From Phycisphaerae bacterium (GTDB lineage: Bacteria; Planctomycetota; Phycisphaerae; Sedimentisphaerales; SG8-4): 6,912 nt of DNA. Below the pieces are notes generated by a model. It did no database searches and was not told the DNA's origin. It saw only the letters and a list, made by a program, of their open reading frames with translations. Below, piece by piece: positions 1-6,912 of the stretch. The stretch covers positions 1 through 6,912 of the forward strand of contig JAUXAH010000096.1 in assembly GCA_030614945.1 (NCBI GenBank), given 5' to 3'. The number at the start of each line of letters is the position of its first letter. Position 1 is the stretch's first letter. The position numbers were made by a program, and so were the translations under genes.

Positions 1-1130
1 CCATTACCGGTCGCGGGACATTAGACGGCCAGGGGAAGCCGTGGTGGGAAGCGTTGCGCAAAGATAAAAACAAGAAGAGAAGCGAAAAGAAGATACTTAC
101 CTATGGCCGCCCAAGGGTAATCAACCTTTACCGCTGCCGAAACGTCCTGATACAGGGAGTGACCATCATCGACTCTCCTTCGTGGACGGTCCATCCGGTC
201 GGTTGCGAAAACCTTGTTGTGGAAGGCATTTCGATTATCAATCCCGAGGACGGCCCCAACACCGACGGCATAAACCCCGAGTCCTGCCGCAATGTGCGCA
301 TCTCGAACTGCTTCATAGACACGGGCGACGACTGCATCACGTTGAAATCGGGACGTGATGAAGAAGGCCGGTTAAAAGGAAAGCCCACTGAAAACGTTGT
401 CATCACTAACTGTGTGATGTACAAAGGCCACGGTGCTGTGGTTATTGGCAGCGAGATGTCAGGAGGTGTCCGCAACGTTAGCGTAAGCAACATCGTGTGT
501 GTTGGCACTGACCGTGCTGTTCGCATTAAGAGTACGCGGGGGCGAGGTGGGGTGGTGGAAAACATTCGTTTCTCTAACTTTGTGGTCGAAAACGTGAGGG
601 AACCGATTTACATCACTACTTTTTACACAAAGACCGATCCAGAACCTGTTTCAGAGCGGACCCCTGTTTTTCGCGATATAGCCATCAGCCATTTTACAAT
701 CAAGAAATCGTTCTGCACGGCAAAAATACTTGGATTGCCCGAAATGCCCATTCAGGGGCTGCGTATCACCGATGTCGTAGCCTCGACAGAGGTGGGGTTC
801 TTTTGTGACAGCACTGTGGGTCTTGAACTACAAAACGTACAGGTGAACACTGCCAAGGGCCCCTCTTTTCATCTCAGGAACTGCACGAATCTAAGGCTCT
901 CTGGAACAGAAACGACGAAGCCCCGAGCCAATGGCCCAGTTGTCCTGCTGGAGAGTGTCCAGGATGCTTTTATCCATGGGTGCAGGGCATTTTCTGGAAC
1001 CGGTAACTTTCTCGAGGTTGGGGGAAAAGCGAGCAAAGGTATTGTTCTGGTCGGAAACGAGCTTTCGGCTGCGAAAAAACCCTTCGTTTTGAAAAAAGGT
1101 GTTCCAGAAGGAGCTGTTGTGGAGAGATAG
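1..1130 (+). CDS. GH28 family glycoside hydrolase (polygalacturonase-like), 5' end outside window
   Basis: This is a right-handed beta-helix enzyme of glycoside hydrolase family 28, which hydrolyses galacturonan or rhamnogalacturonan backbones or terminal galacturonates of pectin. The frame is open from position 3 and the first residues read ITGRGTLDGQGKPWWEA, a typical GH28 stretch, so a TTG at 54 is not the real start and the N-terminus lies left of the window. The family catalytic signatures are complete and in order: NTDG (258-269), GDD within DTGDDC (about 321-338), GHG (426-434) and RIK (522-530). The enzyme should therefore be active. The remaining 200 or so residues continue as beta-helix coils with repeated N-V/L-x-L/I turns. 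It ends at TAG 1128-1130. Exact specificity (endo, exo, rhamno-) cannot be read from this part. A signal peptide would be in the missing part. The gene belongs to a separate transcription unit from the operon starting at 1654. Confidence 0.93.
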   Translation, partial: ITGRGTLDGQGKPWWEALRKDKNKKRSEKKILTYGRPRVINLYRCRNVLIQGVTIIDSPSWTVHPVGCENLVVEGISIINPEDGPNTDGINPESCRNVRISNCFIDTGDDCITLKSGRDEEGRLKGKPTENVVITNCVMYKGHGAVVIGSEMSGGVRNVSVSNIVCVGTDRAVRIKSTRGRGGVVENIRFSNFVVENVREPIYITTFYTKTDPEPVSERTPVFRDIAISHFTIKKSFCTAKILGLPEMPIQGLRITDVVASTEVGFFCDSTVGLELQNVQVNTAKGPSFHLRNCTNLRLSGTETTKPRANGPVVLLESVQDAFIHGCRAFSGTGNFLEVGGKASKGIVLVGNELSAAKKPFVLKKGVPEGAVVER

Positions 1131-1234
1131 GAGCAGCTTGGGAAATACGCGACTACGATTAGCAGGGAGAGGTATGCTTCGAGGGAGGAGATTGTGAAGG
1201 GGGGGTGTACGGTGTTCCTTTCCCATCCTAATTT

Positions 1235-1406
1235 GTAACCGTTCACGGGGTAAGTATGCTGATTTTGAGCTGTTATGGACGATTGGATTAACTATTTCGC
1301 CAAAAAATCTTATAAATCTTTAAATAAATCTTAAAAACACCTTGCACAATAACAAAAATCAGCTATATTGAGCTATAGACGCTGGTTTAAACCCGTGAAC
1401 GGTTAC
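1235..1406. mobile_element. 172-bp MITE-like element with IS66-type ends
   Basis: The two ends are perfect 15-bp inverted repeats: GTAACCGTTCACGGG at 1235-1249 and its reverse complement at 1392-1406. A second, subterminal inverted pair (GCTGATTTT at 1258-1266, AAAATCAGC at 1355-1363) makes the ends longer imperfect repeats. Immediately outside lie CCTAATTT (1227-1234) and CCCAATTT (1407-1414), matching at 7 of 8 positions, which reads as an aged 8-bp target duplication. IS66-family insertion sequences are known for ends starting GTAA and for 8-bp duplications, so the family assignment is reasonable. The interior is AT-rich, includes three AAATCTT copies between 1305 and 1332, and encodes no transposase, so the element would need a transposase supplied in trans. 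It could also be a solo internal-deletion remnant. Confidence 0.72.
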
Positions 1407-1429
1407 CCCAATTTTAACTAAAAAAGGTA

Positions 1430-1457
1430 TTGACTCCTACTCTATATATGTTATAAT
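1430..1457 (+). promoter_or_regulatory. Strong sigma70-type promoter with extended -10
   Basis: A -35 box TTGACT (1430-1435) and a perfect -10 box TATAAT (1452-1457) are separated by 16 bp. The dinucleotide TG sits one base upstream of the -10 (1449-1450), giving an extended -10. The 1411-1427 stretch just upstream is A/T-rich and could act as an UP element. Transcription would start near 1464 and run into the VTC operon with a leader of about 190 nt. The -35 lies only 16 nt beyond the flanking duplication of the inserted element. Confidence 0.75.
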
Positions 1458-1508
1458 AAGTCAGTTTGGTGGTTTGGGGAAAAATTGGTTTTTACGCAAT
1501 GGATTTGC

Positions 1509-1560
1509 GGCTCAAACGTCTTTTTGCAAGGAGGGTATCCGATAATAGGGCTCAAAAGTC
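1509..1560 (+). repeat. 12-nt direct repeat in the operon leader
   Basis: GGCTCAAACGTC (1509-1520) recurs as GGCTCAAAAGTC (1549-1560), 11 of 12 identical and exactly 40 nt apart, inside the predicted 5' leader. Between and around them, GGGTA (1533-1537) could pair with TACCC (1566-1570). A 21-codon frame (ATG 1499 to TAA 1562-1564) spans both copies but lacks a convincing ribosome-binding site. I do not recognise a known riboswitch; a regulatory role is a guess from position. Confidence 0.45.
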
Positions 1561-1653
1561 GTAAGTACCCAGAATAAATAGCTTTACGATTGTGGTTTCT
1601 TGAATATCGGGTGATTTAAAGCGTAAGGTTGATATGTTTGGAAGAGGGTTAAT

Positions 1654-2511
1654 ATGTTCGGAGGGTGTAGATCACTAAAAAAGAGCCCCGAGCAAAAGAC
1701 GGGCTCACATCGTCGTAAAAGCGGCATCAGCACTGTAATAAAAGGGGCGAGGGAGCCGGTCAATGGAACTCTGCGACACCGCTATGAGCTGAAATATCGC
1801 ATCAGTGAGTCGCAAGCTGAGGCGATTGCGCAGTTTGTCAAGTCCTACTTGCACCTGGACCGTTACTGCAAATTACGGCGAGGCGGCCGCTATCCGATCG
1901 TCAGTCTCTATTTGGACTCGAACGATTTTCTGCTCTGCCGAGAAAGTCTGACAGGGCAGAAAAATCGCTATAAGCTGCGGATACGCAGTTATACCGACGA
2001 GCCGGACTATCCTTGTTTTTTCGAGATCAAACGCCGGATGGACGCGACTATTCTCAAAAGCCGGGCCCGCATTATGCATCAGGATGTAGGCGCTTTGCTT
2101 TCGGGATTGTCTCTACCACCGCAAAATTATAATGTCGATGATGAGGACACGCTCAGACAGTTCCGGTTGTATATGGACAGTATTAATGCCAGACCCGTAA
2201 TACAAGTTCGCTATATGCGGCAAGCGTATGAAGGCGACTCGGACAACAGGGTAAGGGTGACCTTTGACCAACAGCTATGCTATAAGGTCACCACTGCGCC
2301 CGAAGTAGCGCTTAACGGCCGCGGCTGGCAGCATCATTCCATATCCTTAAGCGGTGTGATTTTAGAGATCAAGTTTACCGATGCTTACCCGGCGTGGATA
2401 AGCCAAATGGCCAAGTATTTCGACTTACGGCAGCAACCAACATCGAAATATGTTTCTTCAGTAAAAGAGTCCTGTATGCTGAGGTTCTGTGCGCCGCTAT
2501 TAAGGGGGTAG
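1654..2511 (+). CDS. VTC-domain polyphosphate-polymerase-like protein
   Basis: This 285-residue protein matches the VTC domain, a triphosphate-tunnel-fold beta barrel that in yeast Vtc4 polymerises ATP gamma-phosphates into polyphosphate. The tunnel motifs are visible in order: RYELKY (43-48, Lys47), YLDS (86-89), the RYKLRIRSY strand (105-113), FEIKRR (123-128), RPVIQVRY (180-187), RVRVTFD (199-205), LEIKF (237-241) and SKY (264-266). These supply the basic residues lining the tunnel and the metal-binding Glu238. The catalytic set looks intact. There are no membrane segments, so the protein is cytosolic. A Lys/Arg-rich extension of about 40 residues precedes the domain. ATG 1654 was chosen because GAAGAGGG lies 5 nt upstream. 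It is the first gene of the operon, 5 nt before the DUF4956 gene, its usual bacterial partner. The bacterial product is usually assumed to be polyphosphate, but this is not proven for this subfamily. Confidence 0.9.
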   Translation: MFGGCRSLKKSPEQKTGSHRRKSGISTVIKGAREPVNGTLRHRYELKYRISESQAEAIAQFVKSYLHLDRYCKLRRGGRYPIVSLYLDSNDFLLCRESLTGQKNRYKLRIRSYTDEPDYPCFFEIKRRMDATILKSRARIMHQDVGALLSGLSLPPQNYNVDDEDTLRQFRLYMDSINARPVIQVRYMRQAYEGDSDNRVRVTFDQQLCYKVTTAPEVALNGRGWQHHSISLSGVILEIKFTDAYPAWISQMAKYFDLRQQPTSKYVSSVKESCMLRFCAPLLRG

Positions 2512-2516
2512 TAACT

Positions 2517-3218
2517 ATGGATAGAATCTGGCAAGTATTTGAAGAGACCCCTGTTGCAGGTGGAAGAGTCTTTACTCTCGAAGGCATCCTTTTGTCCCTA
2601 TTACTGGCCTTTGTTCTGGGGCAGGTTATAGCCTGGGTTTACCACGCCACCCATAGTGGTCTGTCCTACTCAAAGTCCTTTGTGCAGGCGCTGATTTTAA
2701 TCACCGTCGTGGTAGCAATGGTTATGACCGTCATCGGCAACAATATCATCACCGCTGTTGGGCTGATGGGTGCTTTAGCGATTATCCGTTTTCGCAACAT
2801 CATCAAGGACACTCGTGACATAGCATTCATTTTCTGTACGCTGGTGGTCGGTATGGCAGCCGGCTCCCAGCGATACGGCACCGCCATTATCGGCACCGTT
2901 GTTCTCAGTTTGATAGTAATATACCTGTATCTGACCGGCTTCGGCACGCATGAGCCAAACAATGGTTTTTTGCGGTTTAGTCTTAAGGGTCCTATTGGCT
3001 CTGAGCACCCAATTCCCGCTATTCTTAAACGTTTCTGCGGCAAATTCACCCTCATATCGTCGCAAGAGGGCGACTTTGGCGTCTCCGCCGTTGAGTACGC
3101 TTACCAGTTGATAATACGAAATGCCGCAAAAAATGAACTGATGTTGTCCGAACTGAAAAAAGTCGAGGGTATCGAGAGTATCAACCTGACGATGCAGGAA
3201 CGGCTGCTGGAGGTTTAG
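2517..3218 (+). CDS. DUF4956 integral membrane protein
   Basis: This 233-residue protein belongs to the DUF4956 family, whose genes commonly sit next to bacterial VTC-domain genes. It has about five hydrophobic segments (roughly 22-43, 54-74, 76-90, 101-117 and 120-141). The conserved family stretch covers 82-106 and includes GLMGALAIIRFRN and KDTRDIAF. A soluble region of about 90 residues at the C-terminus (145-233) is probably cytoplasmic and ends in a small alpha/beta fold. The start at ATG 2517 is favoured over an upstream in-frame start near 2394. It has AAGGGGG (2502-2508) 8 nt upstream, and an upstream start would overlap the VTC gene by over 100 nt. The gap to the VTC stop is 5 nt, indicating tight co-expression. 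It resembles the role of the small membrane domain of yeast VTC, which anchors the polymerase and forms the translocation path. This role is an inference, since the molecular function of the family is not established to my knowledge. Confidence 0.88.
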   Translation: MDRIWQVFEETPVAGGRVFTLEGILLSLLLAFVLGQVIAWVYHATHSGLSYSKSFVQALILITVVVAMVMTVIGNNIITAVGLMGALAIIRFRNIIKDTRDIAFIFCTLVVGMAAGSQRYGTAIIGTVVLSLIVIYLYLTGFGTHEPNNGFLRFSLKGPIGSEHPIPAILKRFCGKFTLISSQEGDFGVSAVEYAYQLIIRNAAKNELMLSELKKVEGIESINLTMQERLLEV

Positions 3219-3225
3219 CGCACGT

Positions 3226-4452
3226 ATGACAAGAATAGGCTCAAAGAGTTACTGGTTTCGTCGTTTGTATCTGCATTTTTTGCCTATCCTGGTATGGTTG
3301 GGAACGGTGGCATGCGTGGTCGCGCTTTTTCAGCGTCGCGCTGAACGTTTTGAAATTCCGGGTTTTGCGCAGGGTCAAGTGCGTCACGTTAAAGCTACCT
3401 CTCCGGGGCGGTTGAAAAGCGTTTCTGTTCAATTATTTGAGAAAGTCAGCCTGGGCGATACAGTGGCTATAATCGATACTGTACTCGACAATGAAGCCCT
3501 GCTGGAAGGTCAATTAAAGGCACAATTGGATACTGCCCGGGCGGAGATAGAACACCTGATGGCCCAATTAGTCCCCATTCAGGAAACTATGCTCGCCGAA
3601 GCAGCTAATCTGGAAACCGACAAGGTTGAAGCGCAGCGACGATACGCTGTAGATGTAGAGAACGCCAGAGTTCTCATTCTGGAGACCAAAGCGTTGCTTG
3701 CAAGTGACCGGATAATCTTGGAAGACCTGGCCCTGGAGGTACAAATTGTCGAGGAGCTTCTGGCCGAGAAAGCTGTCGTACCTTATGAACTACAAAAAGC
3801 GCAGGTAGCGTACAGCACATTAGCGAAAAAGATTGAAGAGAATGAGCGCCTGCTGGAGCAGAGCGAGCAGGATTTGAAACAAGCACAAGAGCGCTATGAT
3901 GAATTTGCCCAACTCCAGCTGCAGCACCCATCAGTGGACAGTGCCCTTGAGGTTATACACAAAGAAATAGCGGTTCGGGAGCGGTGGATGGATGATTTGT
4001 GGGTACAACTTGAGGCGTTAGAGCTACGTCAAACGGTAAAGTTAAAAGCTCCGTTCGACGGCGTGGTCGTCCCACTTTATGGCAGGGCAGGCGAGGTTGT
4101 TTTACGCAGGTCGGGTGAGTCTATTTTACGCAGGCCGGGTGAGGTTGTTTTAGCCGGCGAGTCGATACTTGCCATAGCAGAGGCCAGGCCCCGTGAAATA
4201 ATCGCCTATGCCGCCGAAGAACAAATAGACCGGGTTCAAGAAGGAATGGGGGTTGAGCTTATCAAAAAGAGGGCGCAGAAAGTTACGATTGTGGAGTCTC
4301 GCGTAGTGCATGTCGGGCCGACTATGGAAAGAAAGCCGGAACGGTTGTGGCAAAATCCGAACATTCCTGAGTGGGGACTTCCCATATCGATAAAAATTCC
4401 CTCGGGTATGGAACTGGTCTCAGGTGAGTTAGTGGGAATAAGAAGCTTGTAG
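3226..4452 (+). CDS. HlyD/AcrA-type periplasmic adaptor (membrane fusion protein)
   Basis: This 408-residue protein has the architecture of membrane fusion proteins, which bridge an inner-membrane transporter to an outer-membrane channel. One N-terminal membrane segment (about 17-36) anchors it in the inner membrane. The first lipoyl half follows (about 52-84, with ATSPGRLKSVSV and GDTVAIID). A long alpha-helical hairpin, rich in Glu, Gln, Leu and Ala, covers about 88-268. The second lipoyl half (272-318) contains LKAPFDGVV and GESILAIAE, and a beta-barrel domain completes the C-terminus. The second lipoyl half carries an unusual insertion of tandem 8-residue units at 289-312. ATG 3226 lies 7 nt after the DUF4956 stop, with GGAGG at 3209-3213. 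The TolC-family gene follows 75 nt later. Normally such adaptors are paired with an RND, ABC or MFS pump, and none is present here. The neighbouring inner-membrane protein is DUF4956, which suggests it is the partner. Confidence 0.9.
   Translation: MTRIGSKSYWFRRLYLHFLPILVWLGTVACVVALFQRRAERFEIPGFAQGQVRHVKATSPGRLKSVSVQLFEKVSLGDTVAIIDTVLDNEALLEGQLKAQLDTARAEIEHLMAQLVPIQETMLAEAANLETDKVEAQRRYAVDVENARVLILETKALLASDRIILEDLALEVQIVEELLAEKAVVPYELQKAQVAYSTLAKKIEENERLLEQSEQDLKQAQERYDEFAQLQLQHPSVDSALEVIHKEIAVRERWMDDLWVQLEALELRQTVKLKAPFDGVVVPLYGRAGEVVLRRSGESILRRPGEVVLAGESILAIAEARPREIIAYAAEEQIDRVQEGMGVELIKKRAQKVTIVESRVVHVGPTMERKPERLWQNPNIPEWGLPISIKIPSGMELVSGELVGIRSL
4090..4161 (+). repeat. Three tandem 24-bp (8-codon) units inside the adaptor gene
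   Basis: Three in-frame units lie at 4090-4113, 4114-4137 and 4138-4161, encoding GEVVLRRS, GESILRRP and GEVVLAGE (residues 289-312). Units one and two share the exact stretch TTTTACGCAGG, and units one and three share GAGGTTGTTTTA. The likely ancestral sequence is a single GEVVLAGESIL strand pair, as in ordinary lipoyl halves, expanded by slippage or duplication without breaking the frame. Confidence 0.85.
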
Positions 4453-4498
4453 CCGGATGAATCCGGCAATCCGCCATCGTGTGGCGGGATGACGGATT
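4452..4498. repeat. REP-like palindromic repeat between adaptor and TolC-family genes
   Basis: The intercistronic gap contains GCCGGA-TGAA-TCCGGC (4452-4467), a perfect 6-bp stem with a tetraloop. It also contains CCGCCA-TCGTG-TGGCGG (4471-4487), another perfect 6-bp stem. An outer stem AATCCG (4460-4465) / CGGATT (4493-4498) would enclose the second hairpin and compete with the first. The TGGCGGGATGACGGAT core resembles dispersed intergenic palindromes (GGCGGGAATGACGG type) known from many Gram-negative genomes. No T-run follows, so it is not a classical terminator. It may set the ratio of downstream gene expression or protect the upstream mRNA from 3' decay. Confidence 0.7.
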
Positions 4499-4527
4499 TG
4501 ACAGACCTGGGGAGGGATACCAAATAT

Positions 4528-6303
4528 ATGATTTGCAGTTGTTTTACCAAAAAACTGGTGTATTCGATTATGTGCGTCCTCGCCGGCTTGTGTAGTTTAA
4601 GCGGGTGCGCTCGGCATGACTATAAAGCAGAAGCCGACGAAAAAGTTTATAAAATCATTGACCAAAAATGGCAGAAGGAATTCGGCAGCCGGGTTAACTA
4701 CAAGATTAGCGATACCGAGCCATCGCCCAATGATATTCAAATCGAAAAAGCCATCCCTGCCTCGGGCGTACTCGGCCTCCCGCAAGCAGTAGCGCTGGCA
4801 ACAGCACATAACCGCCTGTATCAATTAGAGAAAGAATTACTTTACACAACGGCTTTGGATTTGAGATTGACCCGACATGAGTTTGAAACAAAGTTTTTCA
4901 GCGGTGGAAGGGAAGCGTACGGCAAAGAGGGTGACGAGGAAGGACTCGGCGGCGAAGCAGACTTCGGTTTTGAGCGGCTGCTCGCCGACGGTGCGAGAAT
5001 CGGCGCAAAAGTTGGTATCGCCTGGTTCAGTGTGGTCACGGGCGACGTTAGTGGCGGGCTGGCCTCCATCCTGAGCGCAACCGTGATACAACCTCTGCTT
5101 CGCGGAAGCAACCGTAAAATCGTCCAGGAAAATCTCACCCAGGCCGAACGCAACACGCTCTATCAGGTGCGTTCGTTCAATCGGTTCCGCAAAACGTTCG
5201 TGGTTGGGGTCATCACTCAATACTACTGGGTTCTGCAGAACTATGACGCGGTAGAAAATGCGCACGAATATTACAAGACTCTTGACGAGATGTATGGGCC
5301 GGTCGAGAAATTGGTCAATGCAGGACGTTTGTTCAGTCTGGAGCTGGACCGCATCCGCCAGGAGAAGCTGGAAGCCTGGGATATTTATGTTCAGGCACAA
5401 AAAGAATACAAGCAGGCACTGGATGAGTTCAAGTTTTGGCAGTTGAGTTTCCCGGCAAATGTTGAATTCCAATTAGATGTTAATGAGCTTGAAGTTTTAA
5501 GGTCGGTGATGCAGTCTAAGCCCGAGTTTTCCGAGGCCGAGGCCATTGAAGTGGCATTGGTCGAGCGTCTGGACCTTGCTAACAGCGGCGACGCCATCGC
5601 TGATGCCGAGCGTAAGGTTCTTGTTGCCGCCGATGGTCTTCGTGGCGAATTAAACCTTTTCGTTGGTGTGGATGCTACCTCGCTTTCAGACTCTTCAGAA
5701 TTAGCAGGCGTAGGTGCTTTAGATGACGACTTTACCACCGACCGAGATCGTCTCAATCCACTGAGACGTTTGCGTGACAACAATCCGCTGAGAAGTTTTC
5801 TTGACGAGTCCGAGATTGGTGTCGATGTGGAGCTACCGCTGGACAGAGTTCTTGAACAAAACATATATCGCAAAGCTTTAATAGCCCTGAGCCAGCGTCA
5901 GCGCGAGTATGAGGAAATGTCCGATTGGGTAACATTGGAAGTGCGTCAGGCCTACCGTGACCTGACGGAAGCAGCCGAACGCTACCGTGTCCAGTCAGAC
6001 GGCGTCGCATTGGCAGAAAAACGCCTTAAGAATACCAATCTTCTGCTTCAGTACGGCCGAGCAAGCAGTCGCCGCGTGCTCAACGCCCAGGACGCCTTAT
6101 TTGACGCTCAGAATGCCGCTACGGAAGCTCTGGTAAGTTATGCTATCGCTACCTTGAATTTTTATCGTGATACCGGAGTCCTCCAGGTGCGCCCTGACGG
6201 AATGTGGGAGAAAGAAAGTGCACAAGAGAACAAGCCTAAAGACCAAAGACCACAGACCAAAGACCACAGCCCAAAAATTAAAGTCTTGCGTCCTGAGTCT
6301 TGA
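4528..6303 (+). CDS. TolC-family outer-membrane efflux lipoprotein (OEP domains)
   Basis: This 591-residue protein has two outer-membrane efflux protein repeats of the TolC type, forming a trimeric channel through the outer membrane and periplasm. The start at ATG 4528 is favoured over ATG 4489. It has GGGGAGGG at 4509-4516, and it directly yields a lipoprotein signal peptide (KK at 8-9, hydrophobic core, lipobox LSGC with Cys27), whereas the longer form adds a polar front and overlaps the palindromic repeat. Family signs are LGLPQAVALA (82-91), QPLLRG (188-193), VNAGRLFSLELDR (263-275), and the closing helix containing YGRASSRRVLNAQDAL and ALVSYAIATLNFYRDTG. It is longer than E. coli TolC (about 470 mature residues), with an acidic insert between the two halves. 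The natural family-like end is around VLQVRPDGMWE. The last 22 residues (570-591), rich in Lys, Pro and Gln, are encoded by a heptamer repeat array. It presumably docks with the adaptor encoded upstream. Confidence 0.9.
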   Translation: MICSCFTKKLVYSIMCVLAGLCSLSGCARHDYKAEADEKVYKIIDQKWQKEFGSRVNYKISDTEPSPNDIQIEKAIPASGVLGLPQAVALATAHNRLYQLEKELLYTTALDLRLTRHEFETKFFSGGREAYGKEGDEEGLGGEADFGFERLLADGARIGAKVGIAWFSVVTGDVSGGLASILSATVIQPLLRGSNRKIVQENLTQAERNTLYQVRSFNRFRKTFVVGVITQYYWVLQNYDAVENAHEYYKTLDEMYGPVEKLVNAGRLFSLELDRIRQEKLEAWDIYVQAQKEYKQALDEFKFWQLSFPANVEFQLDVNELEVLRSVMQSKPEFSEAEAIEVALVERLDLANSGDAIADAERKVLVAADGLRGELNLFVGVDATSLSDSSELAGVGALDDDFTTDRDRLNPLRRLRDNNPLRSFLDESEIGVDVELPLDRVLEQNIYRKALIALSQRQREYEEMSDWVTLEVRQAYRDLTEAAERYRVQSDGVALAEKRLKNTNLLLQYGRASSRRVLNAQDALFDAQNAATEALVSYAIATLNFYRDTGVLQVRPDGMWEKESAQENKPKDQRPQTKDHSPKIKVLRPES

Positions 6304-6912
6304 GTCTTGTGTTCTGCTATTGATGTGCAGCACCATAGGCCGTGCTGCTTATAACACTCCACCTGAAGAAGTTCTCATTTATCGTGGAACCAGTGATGCC
6401 TCTGCTGCGGTCGCGGTGAGTGAAAAGATGTTCATCGTGGCCGACGATGAGAACAACGTATTGAGGGTTTACAAAACCAATGCATCCGGCCTTCCTGTTT
6501 TCTCTTATGACCTGACAGAGTTTCTTGATATTGAGCCGGAACACCCGGAGGCCGACATTGAGGGCGCAACAATGGTTGGAGACCGCATCTATTGGATTAC
6601 TTCGCACGGTAGAAACAAGGACGGGAAAATGCGGCCGAACCGGTATCGTTTTTTCGCCACCTCGGTTAAAGTCCAAAATGACAACGTTACTATCCGCCCC
6701 GCAGGTATCCCCTGCCGAACCCTCATCGACAGTCTGGTTAAAACCGCCGGCAGCGTCCAGTTAGAATTAAAGCGGGCGACTCGATTTGGTGCAGCGAACC
6801 TTACAAAACAACAGCGCAAAAACCTCGCGCCCAAAGAAGAGGGCCTTAATATTGAGGGGCTTTGTGCTTCACCTGACGGCAGGACAATCTACATTGGATT
6901 CAGGAACCCTCG
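6218..6912 (+). CDS. DUF3616 domain protein, exported, 3' end outside window
   Basis: The frame 6323-6912 encodes a DUF3616 protein, recognised by DIEGATMVGDRIYWITSHGR, the following KMRPNRYRFFAT, and LAPKEEGLNIEGLCASPDGR near the window edge. The family resembles beta-propeller-like secreted proteins of unknown function and is cut off here after about 230 codons. I place the start at GTG 6218 because GGGAG (6206-6210) precedes it by 7 nt. The frame then gives a Lys/Arg-rich front (2-22), a hydrophobic core (24-37, CVLSLESCVLLLMC) and a cleavage-like GRAA at 41-44. This would be a signal peptide with an unusually long n-region. ATG 6323 is the alternative but would start within this core and leave no export signal. 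With the GTG start, the gene overlaps the TolC-family gene by 86 nt in another frame. Cotranscription is likely. Its role in the system is unknown. Confidence 0.82.
   Translation, partial: MHKRTSLKTKDHRPKTTAQKLKSCVLSLESCVLLLMCSTIGRAAYNTPPEEVLIYRGTSDASAAVAVSEKMFIVADDENNVLRVYKTNASGLPVFSYDLTEFLDIEPEHPEADIEGATMVGDRIYWITSHGRNKDGKMRPNRYRFFATSVKVQNDNVTIRPAGIPCRTLIDSLVKTAGSVQLELKRATRFGAANLTKQQRKNLAPKEEGLNIEGLCASPDGRTIYIGFRNP
6235..6317. repeat. Inverted array of heptamer repeats across a gene junction
   Basis: The left arm consists of 7-bp units CCTAAAG, ACCAAAG, ACCACAG, ACCAAAG, ACCACAG (6235-6269). After a short A-rich spacer, the right arm has GTCTTGC, GTCCTGA, GTCTTGA, GTCTTGT, GTTCTGC (6283-6317). 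Read on the minus strand, the left arm gives GTCTTTG / GTCTGTG, so both arms are diverged copies of one GTCTTKR-like heptamer in opposite orientation and could fold into an imperfect stem-loop. The stop codon of the TolC-family gene (6301-6303) lies inside a heptamer. Confidence 0.85.

Follow-up and report, generated by a model that had tools for sequence, protein, structure and literature searches.

An energised pump is part of the definition of a tripartite conduit. EmrAB-TolC and MacAB-TolC, for example, join an MFS or ABC transporter to an adaptor with a hairpin and a TolC-family channel. Here we describe a four-gene locus of a Phycisphaerae bacterium, contained in a stretch of 6,912 nucleotides (GenBank assembly GCA_030614945.1, contig JAUXAH010000096.1, positions 1 to 6,912; referred to below as the window), in which an adaptor of this fold, with its hairpin, and a TolC-family channel are encoded together with a VTC-domain protein and a DUF4956 membrane protein; unlike in EmrAB-TolC and MacAB-TolC, no MFS or ABC transporter was found alongside. 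In the open-access literature we found no report of a VTC-DUF4956 pair accompanied by an adaptor and a channel.

The closest idea found is a proposal for cyanobacterial cellulose export (attributed to Maeda 2018), in which XcsA, XcsB (HlyD) and TolC would form a tripartite secretion system, and which the available text of a review (PMC12430437) presents as a model without experimental validation. There, as at the present locus, a polymer synthase takes the place of a pump and is accompanied by an HlyD-type adaptor and a TolC-type channel. As described in that text, however, XcsA is itself an integral membrane glycosyltransferase, whereas no hydrophobic segment was found in the VTC protein of the window and the putative conduit, DUF4956, is a separate gene; the polymer here would be phosphate, and all of the parts lie together. 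The tunnel-fold polymerase domain is shared with the eukaryotic VTC complex, and in yeast, according to the available part of PMC9911596, synthesis by this complex is coupled to translocation through a channel lined by basic residues on which transport depends. Unlike the eukaryotic enzyme, the polymerase of the window has neither an SPX domain (Pfam found the VTC domain alone) nor a membrane helix, and there are two membranes to cross. The same VTC-DUF4956 pair, by family, is also found beside pel: in streptococci and clostridia, genes for CotH, a polyphosphate polymerase and DUF4956 form one contiguous stretch with pel, as stated in the accessible portion of PMC7112168. That set is Gram-positive, and neither an adaptor nor an outer-membrane channel is mentioned in the available text of PMC7112168 and PMC12345266.

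We propose that the locus quite possibly encodes a pumpless trans-envelope conduit carrying a phosphate polymer, the motor being perhaps different from the one assumed below. The genes of the window, all on the plus strand, are arranged in the order GH28 (cut), VTC, DUF4956, HlyD, OEP and DUF3616 (cut), as assigned by Pfam. The VTC-domain protein, a putative polyphosphate polymerase of 285 amino acids (1654-2511), matches PF09359 with an E-value of 2.3e-37 (129.2 bits against a cut-off of 23); the DUF4956 inner-membrane protein of 233 amino acids (2517-3218) matches PF16316 (E 2.5e-13), the periplasmic adaptor of 408 amino acids (3226-4452) matches HlyD_3, PF13437 (E 1.8e-07), and the outer-membrane channel (4528-6303, in a frame open from 4489) matches PF02321 (E 6e-19). 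The original prediction, made from this DNA alone, had named these four domains, and all of them score above the Pfam cut-offs. The likely channel start is the ATG at 4528, behind GGAGGG, which gives a lipoprotein-like product of 591 amino acids with the signal LSGC; the relatives in loci L002 and L008 are equally long. The gaps are 5 nucleotides between VTC and DUF4956, 7 between DUF4956 and the adaptor gene, and about 75 between the adaptor gene and the likely channel start, in keeping with the earlier view that four consecutive genes form one apparent operon. That view had also held that no pump gene lies between 1654 and 6912, and the Pfam scan agrees: the gene after the channel encodes a DUF3616 protein.

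The four-gene order recurs in other genomes, as the original prediction had left to be searched for. A scan by adaptor alignment, limited to one genome per species and using short patterns so that distant relatives were missed, returned 26 loci, in which gene calls are longest-frame picks by the analyst. Fourteen of these (L001, L004 to L013, L016, L017 and L018) carry all four genes in order, with the channel of L009 cut by the contig end and the DUF4956 frame of L007 seen only in an all-frame search. In four more (L002, L003, L023 and L024) the contig starts at or within the adaptor gene and runs on into a channel gene, the contig of L015 stops within the adaptor gene, and in another four (L014, L019, L021 and L022) the neighbour of the adaptor is a secretin and not a TolC-type channel. 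L020 gave a short adaptor alignment (240 amino acids) with no channel found, and L025 and L026 are distant, with adaptor identities of 24 and 26%. The closest locus, L008, has an adaptor 91% identical to that of the window and the same gene order from GH28 to DUF3616. Those adaptor relatives that are named belong to Planctomycetota, Phycisphaerae and Sedimentisphaerales.

A survey of the phylum places the adaptor within a larger family. VTC was found in 78 of 294 sampled genomes, and the neighbourhoods of 101 listed VTC matches were compared in 100 loci (99 plus L014), with counts that are lower bounds as several contigs are short. DUF4956 lies within 6 kb of VTC in at least 84 of these loci, an adaptor stands beside the pair in at least 23, and beside the adaptor there is a TolC-type channel in at least six and a secretin in at least one. 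For phylogenetic trees 122 loci were offered (the window, L001-L022 and L057-L155), and the 100 kept have VTC and DUF4956 with more than 60% profile coverage within 6 kb of each other. In both the VTC and the DUF4956 trees, all 43 adaptor-bearing loci fall in one clade of 45 rows; the two rows without an adaptor are L089, whose contig ends about 100 nucleotides after DUF4956, and L101, a true exception. Three changes account for adaptor presence on the DUF4956 tree and three on the VTC tree, compared with about 32 when the labels of the latter are shuffled; near relatives inflate this clustering, and the two trees agree. The pattern agrees with the adaptor having joined an older VTC-DUF4956 pair only once.

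Recurrent pump genes were not seen next to these loci. From 46 adaptor loci the two genes flanking the core on either side were taken, 147 in all, reduced to 115 when CotH/LTD (lamin-tail) genes and six others longer than 1100 amino acids were dropped, and to the 108 scanned when seven short ones were dropped by hand. Leucyl-tRNA synthetase, DUF3616 and a prenyltransferase-type repeat are the families seen most often, and the 25 commonest of the 73 families represented include no ABC, RND or MFS family, a count that leaves room for single pump genes; one MatE gene lies in L082, on the other strand. The absence of a pump that had been claimed for 1654-6912 extends to these flanks as far as common families go: no energised ABC, RND or MFS transporter was found at the locus, and a remote gene is possible.

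The adaptor appears to be matched to its channel. Its AlphaFold2 model (mean pLDDT 85) has a single N-terminal membrane helix and a long alpha-hairpin of helices 88-180 and 186-229 with a turn at 181-185, and its best solved matches in Foldseek are EmrA (E 1.8e-17) and MacA. The modelled hairpin tip, residues 174-185 (3745-3780), is the place of the TolC-binding motif RxxxLxxxxxxS; the hairpin tip is the TolC-binding site by experiment in HlyD, MacA and AcrA, as reported in the available text of PMC3391258, from which the motif is taken. The canonical form RxxxLxxxxxxS/T is not present in the window adaptor, which has I174, L178 and V185 instead, and the full motif occurs in five of 43 related adaptors (L082, L085, L086, L090 and L097). 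Among these 43, a two-residue tip insertion is present in all four secretin-linked adaptors and in none of the 21 TolC-linked or 18 unlinked ones. Leu178 is found in one of the four secretin-linked adaptors and in every TolC-linked (21/21) and unlinked (18/18) one, and Arg174 in 0/4, 1/21 and 14/18, respectively. This pattern was first noticed in the alignment and counted afterwards; L002, L003, L023 and L024 are shown in the alignment, but neither the adaptor tree nor the counts include them. The adaptor tree, built with the tip columns removed, is compatible with one origin of the secretin-linked four and with as many as three. Since the adaptor tip changes with the type of neighbouring channel, adaptor and channel very likely belong to one conduit, and we consider it highly probable that the adaptor docks to the channel encoded beside it. 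The covariation lends support to the joint role of HlyD and TolC in the original prediction, where they extend the path to the outside.

The secretin genes of L019 (7397-9541), L021 (2743-4656) and L022 (3182-4846) follow the adaptor on the same strand; that the channel can be a secretin had escaped the original prediction. We considered whether the L019 secretin belongs to a type II secretion operon and found no support for this: the next five genes encode DUF362, a fucosidase, TsaD, AIRC and a protein without a family. L066 (6400-10082) has type II/IV secretion ATPase genes after the adaptor; no channel gene was found there, nor a secretin by profile.

The VTC protein has several of the residues expected of an enzyme that would make polyphosphate from ATP, a putative activity here. 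In a profile alignment its R109, R111, E124 and K126 fall on R264, R266, E279 and K281 of yeast Vtc4, and all four are invariant in 17 aligned VTC sequences, the window included. The region of Vtc4 E426 is beyond the limits of that alignment, and E238 (in LEIK) was paired with it by inspection only; the earlier description of intact active-site motifs is largely right.

In the AlphaFold2 model of DUF4956, with a mean pLDDT of 88, the helices span 21-45, 53-73, 77-92, 99-116 and 120-140, and a C-terminal beta-alpha domain follows; the model fits the five-helix membrane protein originally described, and adds an ACT-like domain to it. G85, R91, F92 and R93 are invariant in all 72 aligned sequences. 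The last three of these, R91-F92-R93 (2787-2795), stand at the end of the third helix and open a basic stretch, RFRNIIKDTRD, which would be cytosolic, at the mouth of any pore, if the C-terminal domain is cytosolic. No sequence match to DUF4956 was found among solved structures. Foldseek matches of the model include solved ACT folds and also 2lqj, the C-terminal domain of MgtC, with a best E-value of 1.7e-3; VIA-align, whose rows cover residues 127-233 and nearly all of them 145-233, ranks ribosomal S6, another ferredoxin-like fold, at the top. The sequence also has a weak MgtC match (22.9 bits, below the curated cut-off of 31.4).

From these components we envisage the following route. The cytosolic VTC protein would polymerise phosphate from ATP while docked at the cytosolic face of a DUF4956 oligomer and would hand the chain to the oligomer's invariant basic stretch, RFR...KDxRD; the oligomer would then act as a pore through which the chain crosses the inner membrane, a task that in yeast falls to the membrane helices of VTC. 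As hardly any of DUF4956 lies in the periplasm, an EmrA-like adaptor, with its long hairpin, would be needed to bridge it to the outer membrane, and the exit would be a TolC-type channel for the window and, for some relatives, a secretin, so placing polyphosphate at the surface or outside the cell. Growth of the chain would drive its movement. We regard DUF4956 as probably the adaptor's inner-membrane partner. That the cargo is polyphosphate is a serious possibility, though one that we hold with some doubt, and that chain growth drives export is a more tentative suggestion. As for the original prediction of a polymerisation-driven machine, its gene order recurs, pump families are not recurrent in the flanks and the adaptor is EmrA-like; the DUF4956 conduit, the cargo and the motor we infer, as it did.

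Several observations weigh against such a conduit. The activities of all four proteins are putative. The adaptor model has a pTM of 0.49, leaving its domain arrangement unsure, its TM-scores with EmrA are low (0.34 and 0.40), and the membrane part of DUF4956 has no solved match among those listed by Foldseek and VIA-align. MgtC and ACT, which DUF4956 resembles, are taken in the available text of PMC12345266 as phosphate-metabolism or regulatory domains, and the same text describes no phenotype for deletion of the polyphosphate-polymerase gene of the related set in Streptococcus intermedius. An adaptor was not found in 57 of the 100 tree loci (among them L089, cut at a contig end), and therefore VTC-DUF4956 does not need one; a channel gene was not found alongside the adaptor in 18 of the 43 adaptor rows, three of them (L015, L085 and L088) truncated by a contig end, and two further OEP genes occur somewhere among the scanned flanks. 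The secretin-linked rows are few (four) and perhaps not independent, a single clade of them not being rejected (approximately unbiased test, AU p 0.22), and the secretin of L014 (11231-12901, minus strand) is opposite in strand to the adaptor genes. Nor is the distribution of PPK1 over the 294 genomes complementary to that of VTC: PPK1 occurs in 42 of the 78 genomes with VTC and in 126 of the 216 without it (p 0.51), and VTC as a replacement for PPK1 was rejected. PPK1 was found in none of the 13 genomes of the adaptor loci, in three of 18 once five survey genomes were added, and in 12 of 21 adaptor-type survey genomes.

Other explanations give the pair a different role. The original prediction overlooked a further partner, as the older core set is VTC, DUF4956 and a secreted CotH kinase: CotH is present in 71 of 78 VTC genomes versus 17 of 216 others (Fisher p 4e-43), it lies within 6 kb of VTC or DUF4956 in at least 66 of the 100 survey loci, and CotH-LTD proteins flank the four genes in nine tree loci (L001, L011, L016, L017, L058, L060, L062, L063 and L070). 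VTC and DUF4956 might produce a phosphate carrier (polyphosphate or some other) and move it across the membrane for CotH kinases at the surface, with the adaptor and channel only taking it past the outer membrane, and the contiguity of the CotH, polymerase and DUF4956 genes with pel noted above points the same way. Yet co-occurrence does not name the phosphate donor; Pfam finds no CotH gene in the window, and although CotH is present in 11 of the 13 adaptor-locus genomes, there is no match in those of L008 (G296, the nearest to the window) and L019, both of them metagenome bins that may be incomplete. We judge this explanation unlikely. A related idea, that VTC and DUF4956 modify or regulate a polysaccharide exported through the adaptor and channel, as an accessory exopolysaccharide module, draws on S. 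intermedius, in which, according to the available text of PMC12345266, deletion of SIR_1592 (MgtC and ACT domains), here taken as DUF4956, raised Pel and deletion of the CotH gene SIR_1594 lowered it, both deletions giving more than 50% less aggregation in 10% artificial sputum medium. The GH28 polysaccharide hydrolase gene upstream of VTC in the window and in L008 would suit it as well, but no glycosyltransferase family is among the 25 commonest of the 108 flank genes and none is encoded in the window, and we think such a module quite unlikely. The authors of PMC12345266 state, in the part available, that the three-gene arrangement was not found outside the Pel locus; the CotH-VTC-DUF4956 trio was found in many of the Planctomycetota survey loci, where pel itself was not looked for.

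The adaptor and channel could also belong to an ordinary tripartite efflux or type I secretion system energised by a pump encoded elsewhere, with VTC and DUF4956 as unrelated neighbours or sensors. The resemblance of the adaptor to EmrA, its best solved match, speaks for this, as do matches to the MdtN and EmrA/EmrK models (below their cut-offs) and the retention of the motif arginine in 14 of the 18 adaptors without a neighbouring channel. Such a system would not account for an adaptor confined to one VTC-DUF4956 clade, or for the lack of a pump family among the commonest flanking genes, and it seems to us decidedly unlikely. Finally, the locus could serve intracellular phosphate control, with VTC hydrolysing triphosphate or acting in storage and DUF4956 regulating in the manner of MgtC. 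Tunnel enzymes include hydrolases, and the sub-threshold MgtC score, the ACT-like domain and the 2lqj match would all suit a regulator; this reading leaves the dedicated adaptor and its matched channel unexplained, however, and is highly improbable.

In L118, L135 and L144 several CotH genes stand in a row near VTC and DUF4956, and in adaptor-less loci a gene of 366-398 amino acids lies between DUF4956 and CotH, as in L057 (4187-5290) and, at similar length, in L061, L064, L065 and L072; in L073 a 365-amino-acid gene (11781-12878) lies beyond CotH. The L057 product has a TPR match above cut-off and the L073 product a weak TPR match only.

Several other features of the window and its relatives were recorded. 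The C-terminal residues P371, L374, G384, G400 and E401 are at least 90% conserved in 36 aligned adaptors. In the adaptor gene, three tandem 24-nucleotide copies (4082-4152, plus strand) give RRxGE repeats within a loop of the lipoyl region; residues 286-298 there are of low confidence in the model, and 13 of the 36 aligned adaptors have a longer loop. An apparent DUF4956-HlyD fusion, seen as overlapping calls in L079 and L084, was rejected on the strength of the L084 frame, the one of the two scanned with Pfam, which has HlyD domains only, and the overlap is taken as an over-long reading frame. About 200 nucleotides before the VTC start, a promoter-like site on the plus strand (1430-1457; TTGACT, 16 nucleotides, TATAAT, with TG before) has 11 of 12 consensus matches; seven such sites were found against 5.9 expected in shuffles, a frequency near chance in the region, and the site is only suggestive as a promoter. 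No match to Rfam at gathering score, and hence no regulatory RNA, was found in the window. The last codons of the channel gene enter a low-complexity GACCAAAGACCA-like stretch (6225-6310), a weak direct repeat that may be an intergenic repeat of the lineage. The DUF3616 gene (6323-6912, plus strand, cut by the window end) adjoins the channel gene in the window, L002 and L008 and lies beyond the secretin in L014, and is a possible fifth member of the set.

In its widest form, the preferred reading of a pumpless conduit would make VTC-DUF4956 a general bacterial polymerisation-driven exporter of polyphosphate, fitted once with an adaptor in Planctomycetota and then with exchangeable TolC-type or secretin exits, which feeds surface CotH kinases with polyphosphate as a donor where ATP is absent; this we consider improbable. 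If the conduit itself is real, the principle of synthesis-driven export would extend to an inorganic polymer; the genes of the locus would be candidates for those behind polyphosphate found outside bacterial cells, and DUF4956 would gain a suggested role. The apparent replacement of a TolC-type channel by a secretin, accompanied by a corresponding change in the adaptor tip, would, if it holds, be an unusual case of one outer-membrane partner being swapped for a non-homologous one, and is directly testable.

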